Origin: Xiphias gladius | Lineage: Eukaryota; Chordata; Actinopteri; Istiophoriformes; Xiphiidae | Direction of reading: 5' to 3' | DNA length: 64,000 bases | NCBI RefSeq assembly: GCF_016859285.1 | Contig: NC_053407.1 | Coordinates: 6,276,357-6,340,356, forward strand | In this document: piece by piece, positions 18,430 to 60,046 of the stretch | Layout of the letters: every line of letters starts with the position of its first letter | Numbering within the stretch: the first letter of the stretch is position 1 | Position numbers and translations under genes: made by a program | The notes under the pieces: generated by a model | The model's input: only the letters and a program-made list of their open reading frames with translations | What the model was told of the DNA's origin: nothing | Database searches by the model: none

Positions 18430-49745
<31,316 letters not shown>

Positions 49746-50513
49746 TTTTGGCCTCTGTTTTGTATCTTATTGTTCGTTTCTTTCTATCCAAAACCCCGTC
49801 TCAGTCCGCTGGAGCTGTAGGCTGAGAGTGAGAGGGACTGAGGGGAGAAAATAGCAGCGGTGTGACATCCCCGGATAAGCAGCAGAATGTACTCTAGATG
49901 CTAACAGTGCCGTGTGGGTACTGTAGTTCAGCTGCACGCTCGCTTTTATGCTAATGTCTCTAGAAATGACTACACAGCTTCACTATGGGGACCCTGGTTT
50001 AGGGGTTCCCACTGAGAAAGATAGCTAGGAAATGTAGTTTTTCAGCTTTTAAATTTACAGGCAGTTTGTTTTTAGAACATTATAAAATTTTATCTAATTT
50101 CTTATGTTATCCATACGTGGCATGTGCATGAGAGAAAGCCGAACATAAATATATTTGCTAGCTAGATGAAAATGTATTGACAGGTTTAATATCCCCATTA
50201 TTTCCAGATGTGGAATTTGGTGTTTTTCTTATTTTCTCTTCTATCACTTCTATATTGCACAGCAAGTCCTGGAAGTTGCAGTTTTGTGTGACATTTATAA
50301 AGTAGGTTACCAATTTGATTATTTATTTATCATACATTTGTTACTGGCACTACTCAGGGTAAATGGCTAATATGCAGGTTTAAAAACTGCACTTTTTCAT
50401 GGTTACAAAGTGTCTATATTCTATTTACGAGGAAAGTTTTTTGTCTTATGCAATTTGTAAAGTAATTTGGCGCGCCACGGTGAACTCTGGGTCTTGCTGC
50501 GTGCCCCGTACTC

Positions 50514-50527
50514 GTTACCATGGAAAC
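50514..50527. promoter_or_regulatory. RFX X-box-like site upstream of tsnaxip1
   Basis: GTTACCATGGAAAC matches the imperfect-palindrome X-box consensus (GTNRCC, 0-3 nt, RGYAAC) with one mismatch in the right half. RFX factors drive ciliary genes, and TSNAXIP1 is expressed in ciliated and testis tissue, so a site here is plausible. Motif match only. Confidence 0.5.
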
Positions 50528-50621
50528 TCTGCTACAATGCTATGACCTGTGATGCCAAACTCAAGTTAAAAAGAGCAAGAGCTTGTTATGTTATTATTTA
50601 GCCTTCATATAATCACTAGAG

Positions 50622-50662
50622 ATGTCACCGCACAAAGATATAAAATTTCCACCTTTAACGCC
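50622..50662 (+). other. possible tsnaxip1 first coding exon
   Basis: An ATG at 50,622 opens MSPHKDIKFPPLTP before an in-frame TAA. A weak donor (CC|GTCTTA) at 50,663 would leave two bases, which fit the phase of the exon beginning at 50,810. The donor is far from consensus, so either this is not the exon or its donor has decayed. Low certainty. Confidence 0.25.
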
Positions 50663-50809
50663 GTCTTAAAAACAAAAGCAAGTGATAAATAGATTGCTAT
50701 ATAAAGATTGTAACTATTGTATTATTACATGTATATATCGTGATTAGCGTAACTAGCTAGTTAAATTACAATGTTAAACCTAACTTATCTCTGTTCTTGA
50801 TTATTTAAG

Positions 50810-50918
50810 ACTGACACGTGACCACAGTATTCAAAATTCCACTATCCAGACATCAGAGGAAGGGCAAGAAGGAGAAAGCGCTGGTACTGTTTTTGTCCAG
50901 CCATCTGCAGCGAGAAAG
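50810..50918 (+). pseudogene. tsnaxip1: tsnaxip1 exon, N-terminal Gln/Ser-rich part
   Basis: 109 nt after acceptor TTATTTAAG, to donor AAAG|GTAAGC. Frame starting after one base gives RDHSIQNSTIQTSEEGQEGE and ends VQPSAARK in phase 0. No ATG in this exon, so a further upstream exon must supply the start. Not conserved enough to align with mammals; assigned by phase and position. Confidence 0.55.
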
Positions 50919-51153
50919 GTAAGCAAACCAGCAACAGGTTGATCAAACCTGTGATGATTTCACTCATGGTTAGCTTACTTTATGTTACTGAATATGAATA
51001 GTAGCTTAGGTATTTTGATTTCTGTAAAGATGATTAGTCAAAATAGCTAACCACTAAGGGGGGTACCTTTTCCACTGTCTTAGCAAAGTCGAGTACTCAT
51101 CTTGCCCTTTGTGTGTGTGTGTCTGTGTGTGCGTGTGATAAACCCTGCCCTAG

Positions 51154-51294
51154 TTGTGCTGGGCAGGAAGCGCTTACATTTATGCAGGCCTGGAGAGAAA
51201 GCCCCAACTGCTGATGCACCTGGAGAACTATGTGAACAAGGAGCTGCATACTATCAGCCCCAATGAGCCAAAATTCCAGGAACTGAAGCTACAG
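51154..51294 (+). pseudogene. tsnaxip1: tsnaxip1 exon with LENYVNKEL segment
   Basis: 141 nt, acceptor CTGCCCTAG, donor CAG|GTGCTG, open throughout. Encodes GLERKPQLLMHLENYVNKEL and ends FQELKLQ; human has LEELENYLRKEL and QELRLQ at this place. A second acceptor at 51,166 exists but would change phase. Confidence 0.85.
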
Positions 51295-51443
51295 GTGCTG
51301 TGGTTTATTTTCACAAAGAAAAAACAGAAAAAAGTACCATATATACACTACCATACAAACCATACTACCAGAAGCACATTCTTTGTTATATTAAATATAG
51401 ATACATAAAGAATATTACATGTCACCATCTGCTTTGGCCACAG

Positions 51444-51551
51444 GTCTACCGTGATGTCTTTGGTTGTTTCATCAAAGAGTTCAAAACCTACCAACCCCTT
51501 CTATCTGCCATCAAAAAGGAATATGAAAACACAGGTCCTTGGAAAACACAG
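51444..51551 (+). pseudogene. tsnaxip1: tsnaxip1 exon with FKTYQPLLS segment
   Basis: 108 nt, acceptor GGCCACAG, donor CACAG|GTCAGT. Encodes VYRDVFGCFIKEFKTYQPLL and SAIKKEYENT. Matches human PYREIFEFFIEDFKTYKPLL. Intact. Confidence 0.88.
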
Positions 51552-51892
51552 GTCAGTAGCTCTGTGAGTAAACCTGCGTTATCATTTTCTTCTTAAGAAG
51601 AATTACCCTAGTATACATTAATACTCTTTTGAATGGATTCTGTAAGTGCTATAAGATAAAAGGAACAGGGGCCTTTAACATTAGGAGAAGTTAAGTTCAA
51701 CAAAGAGTTAGTTCTGTCAGAAAAATTCTGTCTTTGAGGCACATGAGAAATAGCATACTGCCATGCTATGGAGAATTGCTTACATTTCTGTAAGAGAATG
51801 TTCATTTGATTCACATTGTGTCTATGGCGTCCACGTAAACCAACATTTTTGAAAGCAAATCTGGGTAAAGAGGTTTATGAACGCAGGGCCAT

Positions 51893-52200
51893 ATTGACAA
51901 ATAGTGTAAACAAATAAATGATCAGACTCTCAGAGAAATGCCCTTTTTTTCAATAAACTTGTAGACAGTTAATGTAGTTTGGTACAATCTAAATAGCACT
52001 GATAAGTTGACCTGCTAGCCCCTATGATCTTCTATGAGCTACATTTAAGACACTAGGCAGGAAAAACTTAAAACATTGTAAAATTAGAGCAGTTAAGATA
52101 AAAATAATATGAGGAATCAGTCAGAGCCAGGTTACACAGTTTTCTAATTATTTATTTTAATAATAGAAAATATTTAAAAAATTGTATTCTGCATCAAAAT
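51893..52200 (+). repeat. copy 1 of a ~300-bp dispersed duplicate
   Basis: In tsnaxip1 intron 3. About 300 bases match 57,262-57,562 in direct orientation, e.g. AATGTAGTTTGGTACAATCT, GCTAGCCCCTATGAT and GAGCTACATTTAAGACACT, with substitutions and small indels. Confidence 0.9.
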
Positions 52201-52814
52201 ACATAGTGAGTGACAATCATGGGAGACATTTACAATTTAAAGTGCAGTACTTCTTGAGAAAATGGCAAAAAAAATATGACTCAAAGTTAAACAATTTCAA
52301 TGAAATTTATAAACAACTTTATGATAAATCTTGCATAATAACAGACAAACAAACAAATAGGACAAAAACACAATCTCCTTGCGGAGGTTAAAAGACTTAA
52401 TCACTGGAATAAACTTGAATTTATATTAGCAAGTATAGTAATTGTATATAACATATAGCTAACATTTCTAAGTTTTTTTTTTTATTAGTGATTAATCTAT
52501 AATATTTTTATTGAATTATTCTATAGTCATTTAGCTTTTAAAATGTTTAACATAATGACAAGTGTCCACAAGTTCTCAGATCATGAAGTGACTGATATCT
52601 TCAAAGTGCTTATTTTGTCAGTCAGAAAATCGTAAACAGTTAAATTTAAAATTACACAAAATGAGAAAAATAAAGCAAATCTTTGAGTTGGAGAAGTTTA
52701 TTATAGGACTAATTGAATAAATCAACTGTCCAAATTGTCATCAATAAATCGTTTCAGCCCAATATTTTGATTATAGATCCTTATCATGCGTTATACATCT
52801 GTTCAGCCTATCAG

Positions 52815-53004
52815 CAGGCTCAAATCCGAGAACTGGAACCACTGCGATCCTATCTAAGGTTGGTGACAGAGGAATGTGACAGGAAGATTCAAGCTCGCTG
52901 AGGAGAGGAGCAGGCTGAGATTCGAGCCTTGAAGAGGGAGAAGCAGCAACTGCAGAGGGACATTCAGGCCATGACGGAGAAAGAAAAGGCCATGCAGGCT
53001 GTGG
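52815..53004 (+). pseudogene. tsnaxip1: tsnaxip1 exon carrying TGA stop and frameshift
   Basis: Acceptor CTATCAG, donor TGTG|GTACAT. Reads QAQIRELEPLRSYLRLVTEE CDRKIQAR, then TGA at 52,899-52,901, then GEEQAEIRALKREKQQLQRD in the same frame. Human has an Arg-like position (AMRAEE) there, so CGA to TGA at a CpG is the simple explanation. An extra A in the run at 52,979-52,983 then shifts the frame, leaving phase 1 before an exon that needs phase 0. Confidence 0.82.
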
Positions 53005-53277
53005 TACATTACATAGTTGTAAAGTGGTGTTCTAGCTGCTATTTATATATTAATTCTTGTAACTTTTTAGTGAATACAACTTGGTGTGATTAATTTCCAC
53101 ATGAATTTCTGATTTTCCATTTTTTTTTTTTATGTACAGAACTGATCTCATACATGTGTGTGAAAAATCCCTAGCATCGAAGCATGTTTTGTTTGAAGTT
53201 CAGTTCAGAATATAAGGTCAATGGTAGATTATCATTATCTTGCATCAGTCAGCCCACTGTCTTCCATTCCTCTCCAG

Positions 53278-53419
53278 GTGGAACATCTGCAATATGAACT
53301 GTCCAACCAGTATGTGAAGTATCGGGAGGAGCGTGATGCCCGCAAGTTGATGATCTGGCAGCTCAGTGACCTTAAAAGAGCCTCTCTGAAGGAGGTCCAC
53401 CCTGCAAATAAAAATACAG
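53278..53419 (+). pseudogene. tsnaxip1: tsnaxip1 exon, coiled coil
   Basis: 142 nt, acceptor CTCTCCAG, donor ACAG|GTGAGC. Encodes VEHLQYELSNQYVKYREERD ARKLMIWQLSDLKR. Human has LAEEYLHYLSERDACKILIADLNEL. Intact. Confidence 0.85.
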
Positions 53420-53721
53420 GTGAGCCCAGGCAAGAATTCACATCAGTGTTCATTTAATTTTTTTGTTGTACTCCTTTAGAACCTTACCCACTGACTCACT
53501 ATTTCTGGTCAAGGCTCTGTTAAAATAGAGCCTTAATAATAGATTTAAAAAATTTTCTCTGCCTTTAAAAAATAAAGCATTTAAATACTAAGCAAAAATA
53601 TGATTCCTGAATGATACCTTTTATGTTCATAGTTTATGAATAAGAGACTCAACCGAATATCTATATATAAACATCCAAAAACAAGTTTATTTTGTTCTGA
53701 GTTTTGTTTGCATCGTGAAAG

Positions 53722-53888
53722 AAGAGGCTAAGGACCCACTGAAACTACAGCTTGCCCTGAAGATGTGCCGGGAGGACCTGACTAAGGCCCAACAGGAGCT
53801 CAACAAGATGAAGGCAGAGTACTGGGATGTTGTGCCACGACGCAACTGGGACACCCTGCAACAAACACACAAACAGACATTCCTTCAG
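53722..53888 (+). pseudogene. tsnaxip1: tsnaxip1 exon with DVVPRR motif
   Basis: 167 nt, acceptor CGTGAAAG (weak polypyrimidine tract), donor CAG|GTGGCT. Encodes DPLKLQLALKMCREDLTKAQ QELNKMKAEYWDVVPRRNWD. It is the best-conserved tsnaxip1 exon in the window. Intact. Confidence 0.88.
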
Positions 53889-54027
53889 GTGGCTCATATA
53901 GACAAATGTACTTTACACACAGTATACTCATGCATACACAGAATTCAGTATTTAAAATCTAAAACTTTAAATGTAAAATCTTCACCATAGTCTTGTCTTT
54001 GCATTTGTATTTTTTTCTGCTCTCCAG

Positions 54028-54141
54028 TTGAAGACGCTGCAGGGTGACTTTGATCAGTTGAAGAGCGAGTATGTCACCCTGCTGGAGCTCCTTAAAACAG
54101 GCAGAAGACAGGCTGAGACACATGACTCCACTACTGAACGG
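54028..54141 (+). pseudogene. tsnaxip1: tsnaxip1 exon, last coiled-coil segment
   Basis: 114 nt, acceptor CTCTCCAG, donor CGG|GTACAG. Encodes LKTLQGDFDQLKSEYVTLLE LLKTGRRQAE. Aligns with human LDTLRASYEEVRKEHEILMQL. After this exon the mammalian protein continues with a domain of roughly 170 residues that I cannot find here. Confidence 0.82.
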
Positions 54142-54333
54142 GTACAGTATGTTATACCAATGGTTTCAAAAGTGGGCACAGCATGTTGTGGTGATTTTGT
54201 GTGGAATTGTGTGTCTCCAAATTGTACAGTGAAGGTGATCATGATCAACAACCCCAAGAGACCCAAAAGACCGTTAATATTTGACCTTGTATATGTGCAC
54301 AAATTTGTATCAATAAACTATACTAATAAATAT

Positions 54334-54915
54334 ATAAAGGAATAGTTCGACATTTTGGGTTATAAGCTTTCACTTTTTTGCCTAGAGTTGTATGACAGGA
54401 TTGATATCGCTCACATATCTGTTTGTTCACTTTGATGATGAAGCCAGCAGCAGCTTAACTTATGTTAGCATAAAGACTGGAAACAGGGGAAAACAGCTTG
54501 CATGGCTCTGTCTAAAGTTTTAAAAAAATCTGCTTACAGCACCTATAAAGTTCACTAATTAACATTTTATTCCTTTTTTCATCTATAAAAAAAGAAGTGT
54601 AAAAATGACAAGTGGTGATTTTATGACGGGTATTATCATTTTAAAATTCAGTCCCTGAATGGATTCAACAAACAAGATATAACGTGTCAGTTACCTTTAG
54701 GTTCTGGTAGGCAGATTTATTTATTTTTTAACCCTTTAGACAGATCCTGGCTAGCTATTTTCCCCCGTTTCCTGTCCTTATGCAAAGCTAAGTTAACCAT
54801 CTCCTGGCACCAGCTTCATATAGAACAAACAGATACAGTTTAAGACATGTATCAATCTTTTCATCTGATTCTCAGAAGAAGAGAAAGTAAGTGTATTTTA
54901 CAAAATGTGAAATTG
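54334..54915. mobile_element. MITE of the GGAACAGTTTGACATTTTGG family
   Basis: Begins AAAGGAATAGTTCGACATTT and contains GCATAAAGACTGGAAACAGG, like the nested copy at 27,873. Its right end mirrors the left (ATTTTACAAAATGTGAAATT). It occupies most of the intron where the missing tsnaxip1 block would be expected. Confidence 0.65.
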
Positions 54916-54946
54916 TGTACTTAAGAAGCTGTTTGTTGTTTTTCAG

Positions 54947-55056
54947 ATGGATGCGGGTGGGTCTGAAGAGCAAAGCCAAATTCAGTCCAGCCAGCTAAAA
55001 GAGCCAATCAACTCTGATACCCCTGAGAGACACACACTCACTGTCCAGGAGTTTAG
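54947..55056 (+). pseudogene. tsnaxip1: tsnaxip1 exon bridging to the C-terminal segment
   Basis: 110 nt, acceptor TTTTTCAG, donor AG|GTTACA. Encodes MDAGGSEEQSQIQSSQLKEP and ends HTLTVQEF, which resembles the human LLTMEQF just before FNTVLKSTFPL. The first part has no match that I recognise. Confidence 0.65.
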
Positions 55057-55097
55057 GTTACATAAATCAATGCACAAAAAAGCACACACACAACTGC

Positions 55098-55205
55098 AGT
55101 CAAGTCAAGCCAGTTTTATTTAAATAGTCCAAAATCACAAATTTGCCTCACGGGGCTTTACGATCAGTACAACATACTGTACAACACCTTCTGTCCTTGA
55201 ACCCT
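55098..55205 (+). repeat. dispersed teleost repeat fragment
   Basis: AGCCAGTTTTATTTAAATAG, CACAAATTTGCCTCACGGGG and CTTCTGTCCTTGAACCCTC in order form a frequent fish interspersed repeat. It lies between two tsnaxip1 exons. Confidence 0.6.
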
Positions 55206-55322
55206 CAATTCATAAAAGTAAAAACTTAACCATTAAAAAGACCTATAGATAGATGAGTTGTTCTCTGGTGCTCTGTTTCTATGTCAAAGGAGAGTTGTTT
55301 GTGTACATGTGTGTATGTATAG

Positions 55323-55446
55323 GGCAGTCCTGAGGACAGTGTTTCCTCTGAGGTCAAATGAGGAAATAGATGAACTTGTGTTGTCAGTTAAGAGTGAACG
55401 GGACAGAAGCAATGACATCAACTCCTCCCAGAGACTCAACAGCCTG
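55323..55446 (+). pseudogene. tsnaxip1: tsnaxip1 exon with VFPLRSNEEI segment
   Basis: 124 nt, acceptor GTATAG, donor CTG|GTACGT. Encodes AVLRTVFPLRSNEEIDELVL and RSNDINSSQRLNSL; human has TVLKSTFPLKTEEQIQEL and ADLLNYRSL. Phase joins correctly with the previous exon. Confidence 0.83.
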
Positions 55447-55720
55447 GTACGTACCAGCAGGGGTTTCACCATTTCAGTCTGATGTTACTTGATGCAATTT
55501 ACAAAATGTGACTCCCAGCCCACAGGGTATATGGTAATGAAAAAAATCCTTTTATTAAGCCTATTTGTTTAGTAAATGTGACCACCTTGATTAATGTTGC
55601 CATTATAGTGAAGAAATGTTAAATATTTTTTTATGTCTGTAGAGACACGAAAATTACAGTTTTGATAGCCTCCCGCTCCTTATCTAAAATTTTGCTCTCA
55701 TGATTTTAATGTTCCAACAG

Positions 55721-55810
55721 CTTGCAGAATCTGGTGTGGCAACCTTACCTCCAGCTCTTGATCAATCAGAAGAAAATGCTGCATCAAATAATTTTCCAGA
55801 CAGAAACTGA
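55721..55810 (+). pseudogene. tsnaxip1: tsnaxip1 putative last exon
   Basis: After acceptor TTCCAACAG, phase 0 reads LAESGVATLPPALDQSEENA and stops at TGA 55,808-55,810. The +1 frame of the same exon (LQNLVWQPYLQLL) resembles the human FVQKLWEQYMDEKDEYLQQL better and stops at 55,820, so another frame loss is possible. Confidence 0.5.
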
Positions 55811-56250
55811 TATGTCATAGTATGCATTTTATTAATTAAGAACGTAGTCTACCTTGCCAATTTAGGGACATGTAACCAAAAAAAAAAAAGGTGAACAGAA
55901 CATTAATTCATGAATCACAATTTATTGATTGTCCCTGCAACACATCAACAGTTCCTGATATTTAAATAACTGTAAATGTATGCACAGTAATATAGCAGTA
56001 TGATTGTCTTTTATTACTGACCTAAAATAAAACAAATGCCATTCACCTCCATTGTAATGGGACCAGAACTCCAAAACTTGCCAAACAAAATTGAAACAGT
56101 CAAGTATGCCATGTAGAATGGGTTAATGTCATCCTGCCAAATGCAACATATCAAAATATAAATAACTATAAAATATGATTTTTGGTCATTCAGATGGCTT
56201 TTTTTATCTGTATTTGTCTTGCACTCAAACTATTTATCATAAAATACATT

Positions 56251-56684
56251 TTAAAGGTTCTCTGTGAAGTTTTCATGTAAATAAACAAAAAATATGTTTA
56301 CATTAAGTGTTACTCACCAAAATGCATCATGTGTATCCTTGAGTTCTAATAAATGTGTTGAATGTATTTCCTTCCTCACAAAAGCTGATTTTTTTAAGTA
56401 TTTTAAATCTTGCATTGTTCACATCCATGTAAACAATCCATATTTACTAGCTTGCAGCCTTCTTCTTTGCCTTCACTCACACATCGCTACATTTCTTAGT
56501 GTGTTGCAGACACCTGTAGATCACTGGAACAGTGTCAAACCATTGGCAGGACTGTGTATTGTGTACATCTGTACAAGTGTGCAAGCATGCGCATCCTTGT
56601 GTGTGCATGAGAAAAGTAAAACTGGACCTACACGACAATGTCATAGCGCTACTACAGGTAAAAAACTCCACAGGGAACCTTTAA
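56251..56684. mobile_element. TTAA-bounded MITE
   Basis: Left end TTAAAGGTTCTCTGTGAAG, right end CTCCACAGGGAACCTTTAA, inverted over about 20 bases and both including TTAA (a piggyBac-type target). It contains GTAAACAATCCATATTTACT. The 162-codon ORF there is a by-product. Confidence 0.75.
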
Positions 56685-57261
56685 AATCCACTGTATTTGC
56701 CACTTTGCATGAAATTTTATTTTACCTGATACCCAGAGTTCTACATTCAATCCCAGACTGTATGTGTCCGCGTCTGTGCTAGGCAAACCAAACTTGACAT
56801 TCAATGCACTCTGCTTTAGACAACTCTTTACCTGTTACAACCTTCAGCGCATGTCTTACTTAACCAGAACAACCAATGTGACAATTTCCTGTTAAAGTAA
56901 CCCTGAAGACCCTCCCAAAGCCTCAAGCCAAGGCAACGGAGTTGGATGTCAGCACATGGTAGAGCACTGTTTGATTTCGCATTATTCTTAACAAGGTTCC
57001 AATTGGGGCACAAAGCCTTTAGTCACTGGAGGCCTGAGTCTCACACAAATCCAAGAACTGTTGGTTCATAAGAGTGGGAGTGGAGACTGAAAAAAATCTC
57101 TATGCAATTCTGAAAAATTCAAATCCTACAAGAACATAACTTAAACATGGACAGAAGTGGACTGACAAAGGTCAGTTCTCACATAAAGTATTTGGATTAA
57201 GATGATTATATTGAGTAGCTGACATACAATACTGTACAAAGGAAGTGCCATAGGGACACGT

Positions 57262-57562
57262 AGTGTCAACAAATAGATGATAAGACCCTCAAAGAAATGC
57301 CCTTGATTTTTTTTCAATAAACTTGTAGACATTTAATGTAGTTTGGTACAATCTAAATTGCACCAATAAGGTGACCCGCTAGCCCCTATGATTTTGTCTG
57401 AGCTACATTTAAGACACTGAGCCAGAAATACCTAAAACACTAAAATTAGAGCAATTGAGATAAACATAATATGAAGAAGTAGTCAGAGACAGGTTACACA
57501 GTTTTCTAATTTTTAATTTTAATTATAGAAAATATTTAAGAATTTTTAATCTGCATCAAAAT
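57262..57562 (+). repeat. copy 2 of a ~300-bp dispersed duplicate
   Basis: Direct-orientation partner of 51,893-52,200, 5.4 kb away, downstream of the last tsnaxip1 exon. Confidence 0.9.
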
Positions 57563-58316
57563 GCAAAGTGACTTTCATGTGTACTTACTTTCACCATAGC
57601 CTGTGAAACATTAACAGCTCACAATAACGATTCTTGTGAGCAAAAAAACAAATAAAAAAACAAGACAAAAAGATGTGTGTGAAGCTTAATTACTTGAGTA
57701 AGCATTTATGTTTGTATTACTTACAGCTTGGAAGCAGATTTCAGAACATAAAGTGAACATAAAGGACTGTATCTGCATGAAGAAAGTAAGGGATCCTACC
57801 GGGCTCTGTACCCTTGAAGTACAGTAAATGGATGACTGAGCTTTTGTCTCACAGGGATTACTTTTATGTGTTTACTTCATTATTTCAAACTTTGGCCACA
57901 TTTAATATGAACATTATATATATTACAGAAAATAAGGAAATGCATAATACTGTAGGTCCCCCTTTAATGAATGCGCTGTTACTGATAAAGTGGCCACCCC
58001 AGATAAGCTCCTTTCAGACATTCACAGTAATCTGTAAATGCAAATTTTACTTCACATGTTGATATCATGTTTGATAATGCCCTCCATTTTCTGTTAAAGT
58101 TGCTCAAGGAATCTGCCTACTCAGCACCTAGTAACGTTTATGAAAATTCTTCTCCACAGTAGCTCAATCTCTCCACAGCAAAAGTGACCATAGCTGCATT
58201 TTTTGATGGACTTCCTGCTGCACACTAATTGGAGAGATTTAGAGGAAGAAATTTCAGACTGTCAACAAATCCAATAACAAGAACCACTTTTGCACACACA
58301 GAAACAAACAATGTAC

Positions 58317-58498
58317 CATTGATGTGAAGAAGTTGGTGTAGAAGTCCAAGGTCAGATAAAGGACCTGTCTGGGGAGTTTGCTGAGAACCAACTCAAGGTT
58401 ATGGCAGAGTGCTTTGGCCATGCCCTCACCAGCCTCTTTGAGCAGATGCCAAAGTTTAGGTAAAAAGCCTTTTGTGGAATCACAAATGACCAGCAGCC
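58317..58498 (-). pseudogene. ltn1: ltn1-like piece 4
   Basis: 182 nt, acceptor TTACTTTAG, donor ATG|GTACAT. Encodes KGFLPKLWHLLKEAGEGMAK and LSKLPRQVLYLTLDFYTNFF TSM; human has VFPKLSTVIREGGRGLA and LDFFKNFLTSL. Open, but 2.6 kb from piece 3 with the intervening conserved exon missing. Confidence 0.8.
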
Positions 58499-59075
58499 CT
58501 AAAGTAAGAACAAAAAAATGAAAGAACACGTACAAGGTAACTGATTGGGTCAAGAAAAATTGTGTCTAGTGAAATAAAGCAATTCAAATTTGAATTCCAC
58601 TTCCTTTAAAAAAATTTTTAACAAGGATGGATGACACAACGTATATACACAACATACCTAACAGCATGTAACAGCTTTAATTAAACCTCTCCCCTTTTTT
58701 TTTTCTTTTTACAGTTTTACTTACTGCTAAGATTAATTTGTGACAGAGAAGTAAGTTTTCTTTCTGACAGTTTGCCTTTACAAGTCACAAGAGAATGGAT
58801 AAACCAAAGATAAATTCAGATTCTTTATACATATTTGCTGTAAAACAAGAATCTATAGGTATACTAGTGGTTCAGTTAGGCTCTGAAGGCACAATGTCGC
58901 CTTCAGCTTAATGCTAACATCCGCATGCTAACATGCTCACTATTAAAATGTTAAAATGCTGCATTTTTTACATATACCTTTCAAGCTGATTTAGTGAACT
59001 TGTCATCAAACGTATTATTTACACATACAACAGATAATCAACTTTAGCATACATTTGGAGTCGTGTCTGAATGTA

Positions 59076-60046
59076 CTGTGGCAAGAAAAAGTAACAGCCA
59101 TTTGGACTTACCTGTATTTATGTATAAATTTGTCTTAAAATATGGTCAGATCTTCATCTAAGGTAAGATTATGAACAAACAGAACCTATTTTAACTAATA
59201 ACACATAAATCATTGTATTGTTCTTGTCCATATTGAATACAACATTCAAACATTCACAGTGTAAGTTGAAAAAAGTATGTGAACACCTAGGCTAATGACA
59301 TCAACAAAGGCTAATTAGTTCTAGTTTAGATATTGATCAGTCCACAGTTAGAGAAACTGCCCATGAAGAGAGACGATTTAGTACTGTGGATACTCTTCCT
59401 AGAAGCGGGTGCCCAGCTGAGATGATTCTAAAGGCACAACGCAGAATGCTCAATAAGGTAAAAACAAAGCCCAGAGTAACAGCTAAATGTTTAAAGGAAT
59501 CATTGGAGCTGGTTAATATATCTGTTCATGAGTCTACCATATGCAACTCATTGAACAGGCAGGGTGTCCATGGCAGGACAACACGGTGGAAAATGCTGCT
59601 CCAAAAAAAACATCACTGCACACACAGTGGATGGGGGCATCATGAGTTGGGGCTGTTTTGCTGCCTCTAGGTCTGGACAGCTTGTCATCATAGAGGGAAA
59701 ATGAAGAAAATTAATTCCCAAGTTTATTAAGATATCTTATAGCTAAAGCAGTTCTGTTTGGAAGATTGATCCAAAATTCCTCCTGAACATTTTGCAGGTT
59801 TGATCCACAGCTACCGAAAGCAGTTGTTTGGAGTTATTGCTTTTTCCACCAGCACCGTGAATGTTTAATGGGTGTTTTCAATAAATACACAACAGACTAT
59901 AATTGTTTGTTTATTTTTTTCTTAAGCAGATGTATTTGTTATATACTTGTGGTCTAGTTAAAGATCAGCTCACATTTTATGACCAATTAATGCAGAAAAT
60001 CTAGTCATTCTAAAAGGTTAATGTACTTTTTTTGCCACTATATATC
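59076..60046 (+). mobile_element. Tc1-like transposon, internally deleted
   Basis: Ends CTGTGGCAAGAAAAAGTA and, inverted, TAGTGGCAAAAAAAGTA, each beside TA. Plus-strand remnant at 59,330-59,690: a helix-turn-helix region (TVDTLPRSGCPAE, KTKPRVTAKCLKESL, ESTICNSLNRQGVHGR) jumps directly to a GWGHHELGLFCCL catalytic-core piece. The element lies within the ltn1-like pseudogene. Confidence 0.82.

Follow-up and report, generated by a model that had tools for sequence, protein, structure and literature searches.

The tsnaxip1 locus and its neighbourhood

The window (the whole stretch of 64,000 nucleotides of Xiphias gladius DNA analysed here) lies on a 31.65-Mb contig, where it occupies positions 6,276,357–6,340,356, and carries tsnaxip1 on its plus strand, from about 51.2 kb to 55,810, together with a divergent gene of the RanBP9/10 family on the minus strand (19,191–49,766). 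tsnaxip1 was modelled as nine exons whose intervening sequences open with GT and close with AG, and these introns led to rejection of a processed retrocopy. The TSNAXIP1_N domain starts in the coding exon at 51,188–51,294, whose acceptor is uncertain (AGs precede 51,167, 51,171, 51,188, 51,196, 51,198, and 51,202). After coding exons at 51,444–51,534 and 52,807–53,003, which are treated below, come an open exon that starts in phase 0 (53,278–53,419; VEHLQYELSNQY...), four open and phase-compatible exons (53,722–53,888, 54,028–54,141, 54,947–55,056, and 55,323–55,446) and a last coding exon (55,721–55,810) that ends at an ordinary TGA stop (55,808–55,810). No clear start exon was found; 69 open 5′ models were enumerated within set limits, with 31 of them listed, and none was judged compelling. 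In the interval that separates the RanBP9/10-family gene from the first exon assigned with certainty to tsnaxip1, an ATG begins a 15-codon open frame (MSPHKDIKFPPLTPS) that runs to a TAA (50,622–50,669); within the set limits, none of the 69 open models starts at ATG 50,622.

The first-pass annotation had named the gene tsnaxip1, an identity upheld by its domain and by its neighbour. The Pfam profile PF15739 (TSNAXIP1_N) matches the translation at 75.2 bits against a cut-off of 27, with residues 12–121 covering profile positions 1–110 of 111. The piece upstream of the in-frame stop described below scores 66.7 bits for TSNAXIP1_N when searched alone; the piece after the stop, searched in Pfam alone, gives no TSNAXIP1_N match and nine weak matches to other families (E 0.0063–0.94). 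The copy of the PDB that was searched holds no TSNAXIP1 chain, and its single match (E 0.67) is a chance one. As to gene order, human TSNAXIP1 presumably adjoins RANBP10, and the corresponding neighbourhood was found here at the level of the RanBP9/10 family. The gene thus resembles TSNAXIP1 in having a nearly full-length N-terminal domain and a divergent RanBP9/10-family neighbour, and differs from it in having a TGA inside that domain.

The neighbour's first coding piece lies within 49,542–49,766 on the minus strand. Four of its pieces, when joined, match both RanBP9 (9.2e-109) and RanBP10 (1.9e-105), so that the gene is assigned to the RanBP9/10 family and not to RANBP10 as such; 215 residues from these four pieces align closely to residues 132–371 of the RanBP9 chain, leaving 230–244 (15 residues) and 306–323 (18 residues) uncovered. 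Two of seven minus-strand pieces gave Pfam matches, to SPRY (50.6 bits) and, below the cut-off of 26, to CTLH (21.0 bits). Elsewhere in the window, an open frame at 59,299–59,670 encodes a Tc3-type transposase helix-turn-helix domain, and fragments at 32,407–32,962 resemble a reverse transcriptase/RNase H (32.6 bits) and, at a sub-threshold 17.3 bits, a retrotransposon gag.

An in-frame TGA within the TSNAXIP1_N domain

The third modelled exon (52,807–53,003, plus strand) has its acceptor at 52,807 or at 52,815/52,818 and its donor GT at 53,004, in phase 0. Translation of 52,815–53,004 in frame 1 reads QAQIRELEPLRSYLRLVTEECDRKIQAR, then a stop, then GEEQAEIRALKREKQQLQRDIQAMTEKEKAMQAV; the stop is a TGA at 52,899–52,901 on the plus strand, flanked by the residues ECDRKIQAR and GEEQAEIRALK. 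The TSNAXIP1_N match spans this codon and runs 24 residues past it without a change of frame, so the in-frame TGA that had been described is real as a reading of these letters. The first 18 bases about the exon start (52,813–52,830) recur 96 bp on, just past the stop (52,909–52,926; 83% identity), with an in-frame AG inside the recurrence.

Beyond the TGA the coding frame continues for 282 codons without a stop, whereas the other two frames over the same stretch hold 16 and 25 stops. In 20,000 first-order simulations of the downstream sequence the mean was 13.4 stops and no simulated sequence was stop-free, and all six downstream junctions are phase-compatible; these figures are flattered, because the exon ends on which they depend were picked by eye with the reading frame in view. 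The TGA therefore interrupts a frame that codes, or coded until recently. An origin from the CpG-containing arginine codon CGA had been proposed; a single CGA-to-TGA transition would fit, but TGG (Trp) is also one transition away and may instead have been the source.

The first-pass annotation had placed two disabling changes in this exon, of which only the nonsense change stands. The second, an extra A in an A-run that would shift the frame, proved to be an off-by-one at the exon end: the 190th base of the interval 52,815–53,004 is the first base of the intron, and the supposed extra base at 53,004 is the G of the second of two GTs. Counted from 52,815, the exon is 186 bases long if it closes before the GT at 53,001 and 189 if it closes before the one at 53,004. 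Three divides both lengths, and the exon that follows (GTGGAACATCTG..., beginning at 53,278 with GTG GAA CAT) is in phase 0, as had been claimed, so there is no frameshift. The A-run itself (AAAGAAAAGG) consists of in-frame codons (K-E-K). A frameshift there was accordingly rejected, since exon ends at 53,000 and 53,003 both leave phase 0; of the GTs further on, those at 53,016 and 53,019 are also in phase 0 and those at 53,024, 53,027, and 53,029 are not.

The stop-bearing exon, searched as DNA, has one match in the whole 690.8-Mb assembly of 1298 contigs. A protein search of the same assembly gave nine matches from 13 scored candidates, all nine of them at this locus, and the one match of the nine that holds a stop is the stop-bearing exon, with this TGA as its only one. 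A paralogue or haplotig standing in for the gene was rejected at the sensitivity of these DNA and protein searches, all of whose matches fall at this locus; because the protein search scores the best candidates only, a distant paralogue could escape it. Scans for relatives returned 150 pattern matches in a collection of prokaryotic contigs and 64 in a collection of viral contigs, none of which was confirmed, as expected for such collections.

An error in the assembly's consensus base, with the animal's gene intact, would leave the downstream frame and junctions in the good order seen here, as in any intact gene. Yet the change is a substitution, and the adjacent indel once claimed does not exist. 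Long-read errors are usually recognized as homopolymer indels, and that signature is absent from a substitution with no indel beside it. The frames of the RanBP9/10-family gene also align closely to RanBP9 over four pieces, which speaks against poor local base quality as a weak control, since these pieces were cut from stop to stop and lack stops by construction. A base error is consequently unlikely, though it is the strongest of the alternatives to the reading preferred below, and we infer that the base is real.

That the coding frame continues past the stop is also what would be seen if the UGA were read through or recoded, by selenocysteine insertion or by editing. Selenocysteine was rejected on the failure to find a SECIS element at 48–60 kb: none occurs among RNA-family matches at E up to 1 across 48,000–60,000, where the only matches are to mir-3149 and Yar_1 (49.3–49.8 kb), far below cut-offs. 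Editing within a stable hairpin was rejected as well, because the fold of 52,800–53,010 is no better than those of its shuffles (z 0.51; 138 of 200 shuffles at least as good). The known context for readthrough is UGA-CUA, unlike the GGA that follows UGA here. Recoding of any kind is thus very improbable, the most so of all the readings considered.

A duplicated splice donor upstream

The donor of the exon that precedes the stop-bearing one is duplicated by a 13-bp exact direct repeat on the plus strand (GAAAACACAGGTC; 51,525–51,537 and 51,542–51,554, spacing 17), a feature that the first-pass annotation does not mention. Donor 1 (CAG|GTCCTT at 51,535) ends the exon at 51,534 in phase 1 and pairs with the acceptor for 52,807; donor 2 (CAG|GTCAGT at 51,552) ends it at 51,551 in phase 0 and pairs with the acceptor for 52,815 or 52,818. 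When donors and acceptors are paired crosswise, both of the combinations tried shift the frame. Because the repeat supplies two donors of different phase, the join to the stop-bearing exon is ambiguous. The earlier description of neighbouring splice sites as intact therefore holds in part: the preceding donor is duplicated, the stop-bearing exon might begin as early as 52,807, and its own donor (53,004) scores low.

Splice sites were scored by a simple consensus with approximate site frequencies. On this scale donor 2 scores 4.56 and donor 1 −2.66; the stop-bearing exon's donor at 53,004 scores −1.62, against a median of −4.9 and a 90th percentile of 0.11 for 544 GTs, and a GT inside the same exon (52,859) scores 1.08. 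The downstream donor at 55,057 scores −3.69, so weak scores also occur at sites that are not in dispute. TSNAXIP1_N scores are 75.2 bits for the donor 1 model, 76.5 and 74.3 bits for donor 2 with its two acceptors, and 55.0 bits for the frameshifted model. The main in-frame models score alike, so that Pfam favours neither donor and the 13-bp repeat could be usual in this lineage; it could also be a recent duplication.

The repeat and the uncertain 5′ end leave room either for splicing that bypasses the stop or for further lesions and hence older decay. Under the former, the stop-bearing exon or its 5′ part would be omitted. Donor 51,552 and the exon at 53,278 are both in phase 0, so the stop-bearing exon could be skipped in frame, and the model that joins them is open, without a stop, to the ordinary end of the gene. 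The score of donor 2 over donor 1 (4.56 and −2.66) and the low score of the skipped exon's own donor (−1.62), both by this simple consensus, point the same way, as does the in-frame AG at 52,912–52,913, within the diverged copy of the exon start, which might serve a shortened exon. However, skipping from donor 1 shifts the frame, any skip would remove part of the TSNAXIP1_N domain, a comparably low donor score (−3.69 at 55,057) occurs at another tsnaxip1 junction, and the pyrimidine tract before the internal acceptor is poor (0.31). Bypass by splicing is accordingly doubtful, and somewhat less likely than a base error. Less likely than either is that the donor duplication and the stop are linked, such that the nonsense change is buffered by the new phase-0 donor and a shorter protein is made without the segment; that reading is improbable.

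A gene decaying for longer should show several independent lesions. What was found is one certain stop, no second lesion where one had been claimed, a duplicated donor and no clear start exon. The stop, the duplicated donor site and damage near the 5′ end might together make a pseudogene, inasmuch as the 13-bp repeat creates two donors of which the higher-scoring (51,552) shifts the frame when joined to the first acceptor (52,807), and no compelling open 5′ model emerged. Against this, no lesion is seen across the 282 codons and six junctions downstream; the main in-frame junction models have similar Pfam scores (75.2 and 76.5 bits), so that the repeat may be the lineage norm; and the uncertainty at the 5′ end may merely reflect a missing comparison. 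Older decay thus ranks a little below bypass, and is also unlikely.

A probable nonsense allele of tsnaxip1 and its significance

The locus probably reflects one nonsense change, by substitution, in a tsnaxip1 exon that is conserved. This would be either a null allele that segregates in the species or a loss so young that no other damage has followed. The first-pass annotation had left recent loss, a segregating null allele and sequencing error side by side, and these options are upheld. The allele would be a loss-of-function one of the usual sort, with translation ending after 96 codons, counted over the exons modelled here, inside TSNAXIP1_N. A premature stop upstream of exon junctions leads to nonsense-mediated decay, and because this stop precedes six further junctions, the tsnaxip1 mRNA would be expected to undergo it. 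Reference genomes often carry single stop-gain alleles, and the present case resembles them in having one stop, a gene otherwise open and no second copy found; the duplicated donor upstream is peculiar to this one.

The sperm head reportedly requires mammalian TSNAXIP1 for its formation (Sultana et al., 2023, Reprod Med Biol 22:e12520). In other reports, the Tsnaxip1 transcript was decreased in testes of MTMR14-deficient mice, and TSNAXIP1 took third place (P 0.069) when genes carrying rare disruptive variants were tabulated for familial testicular tumours. None of the three reports is about fish, and loss of tsnaxip1 in fish was not the subject of any title or abstract opening among the literature matches listed. 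The sperm-head study was reportedly carried out in mice. Loss of Tsnaxip1 in that animal would be analogous to the loss proposed here.

If the TGA is carried by one allele only, or is a base error, it is relevant just to annotators of this genome. If it is real and fixed, this fish would have lost a gene of which no second copy was found, and the question would become whether fish need tsnaxip1 at all.
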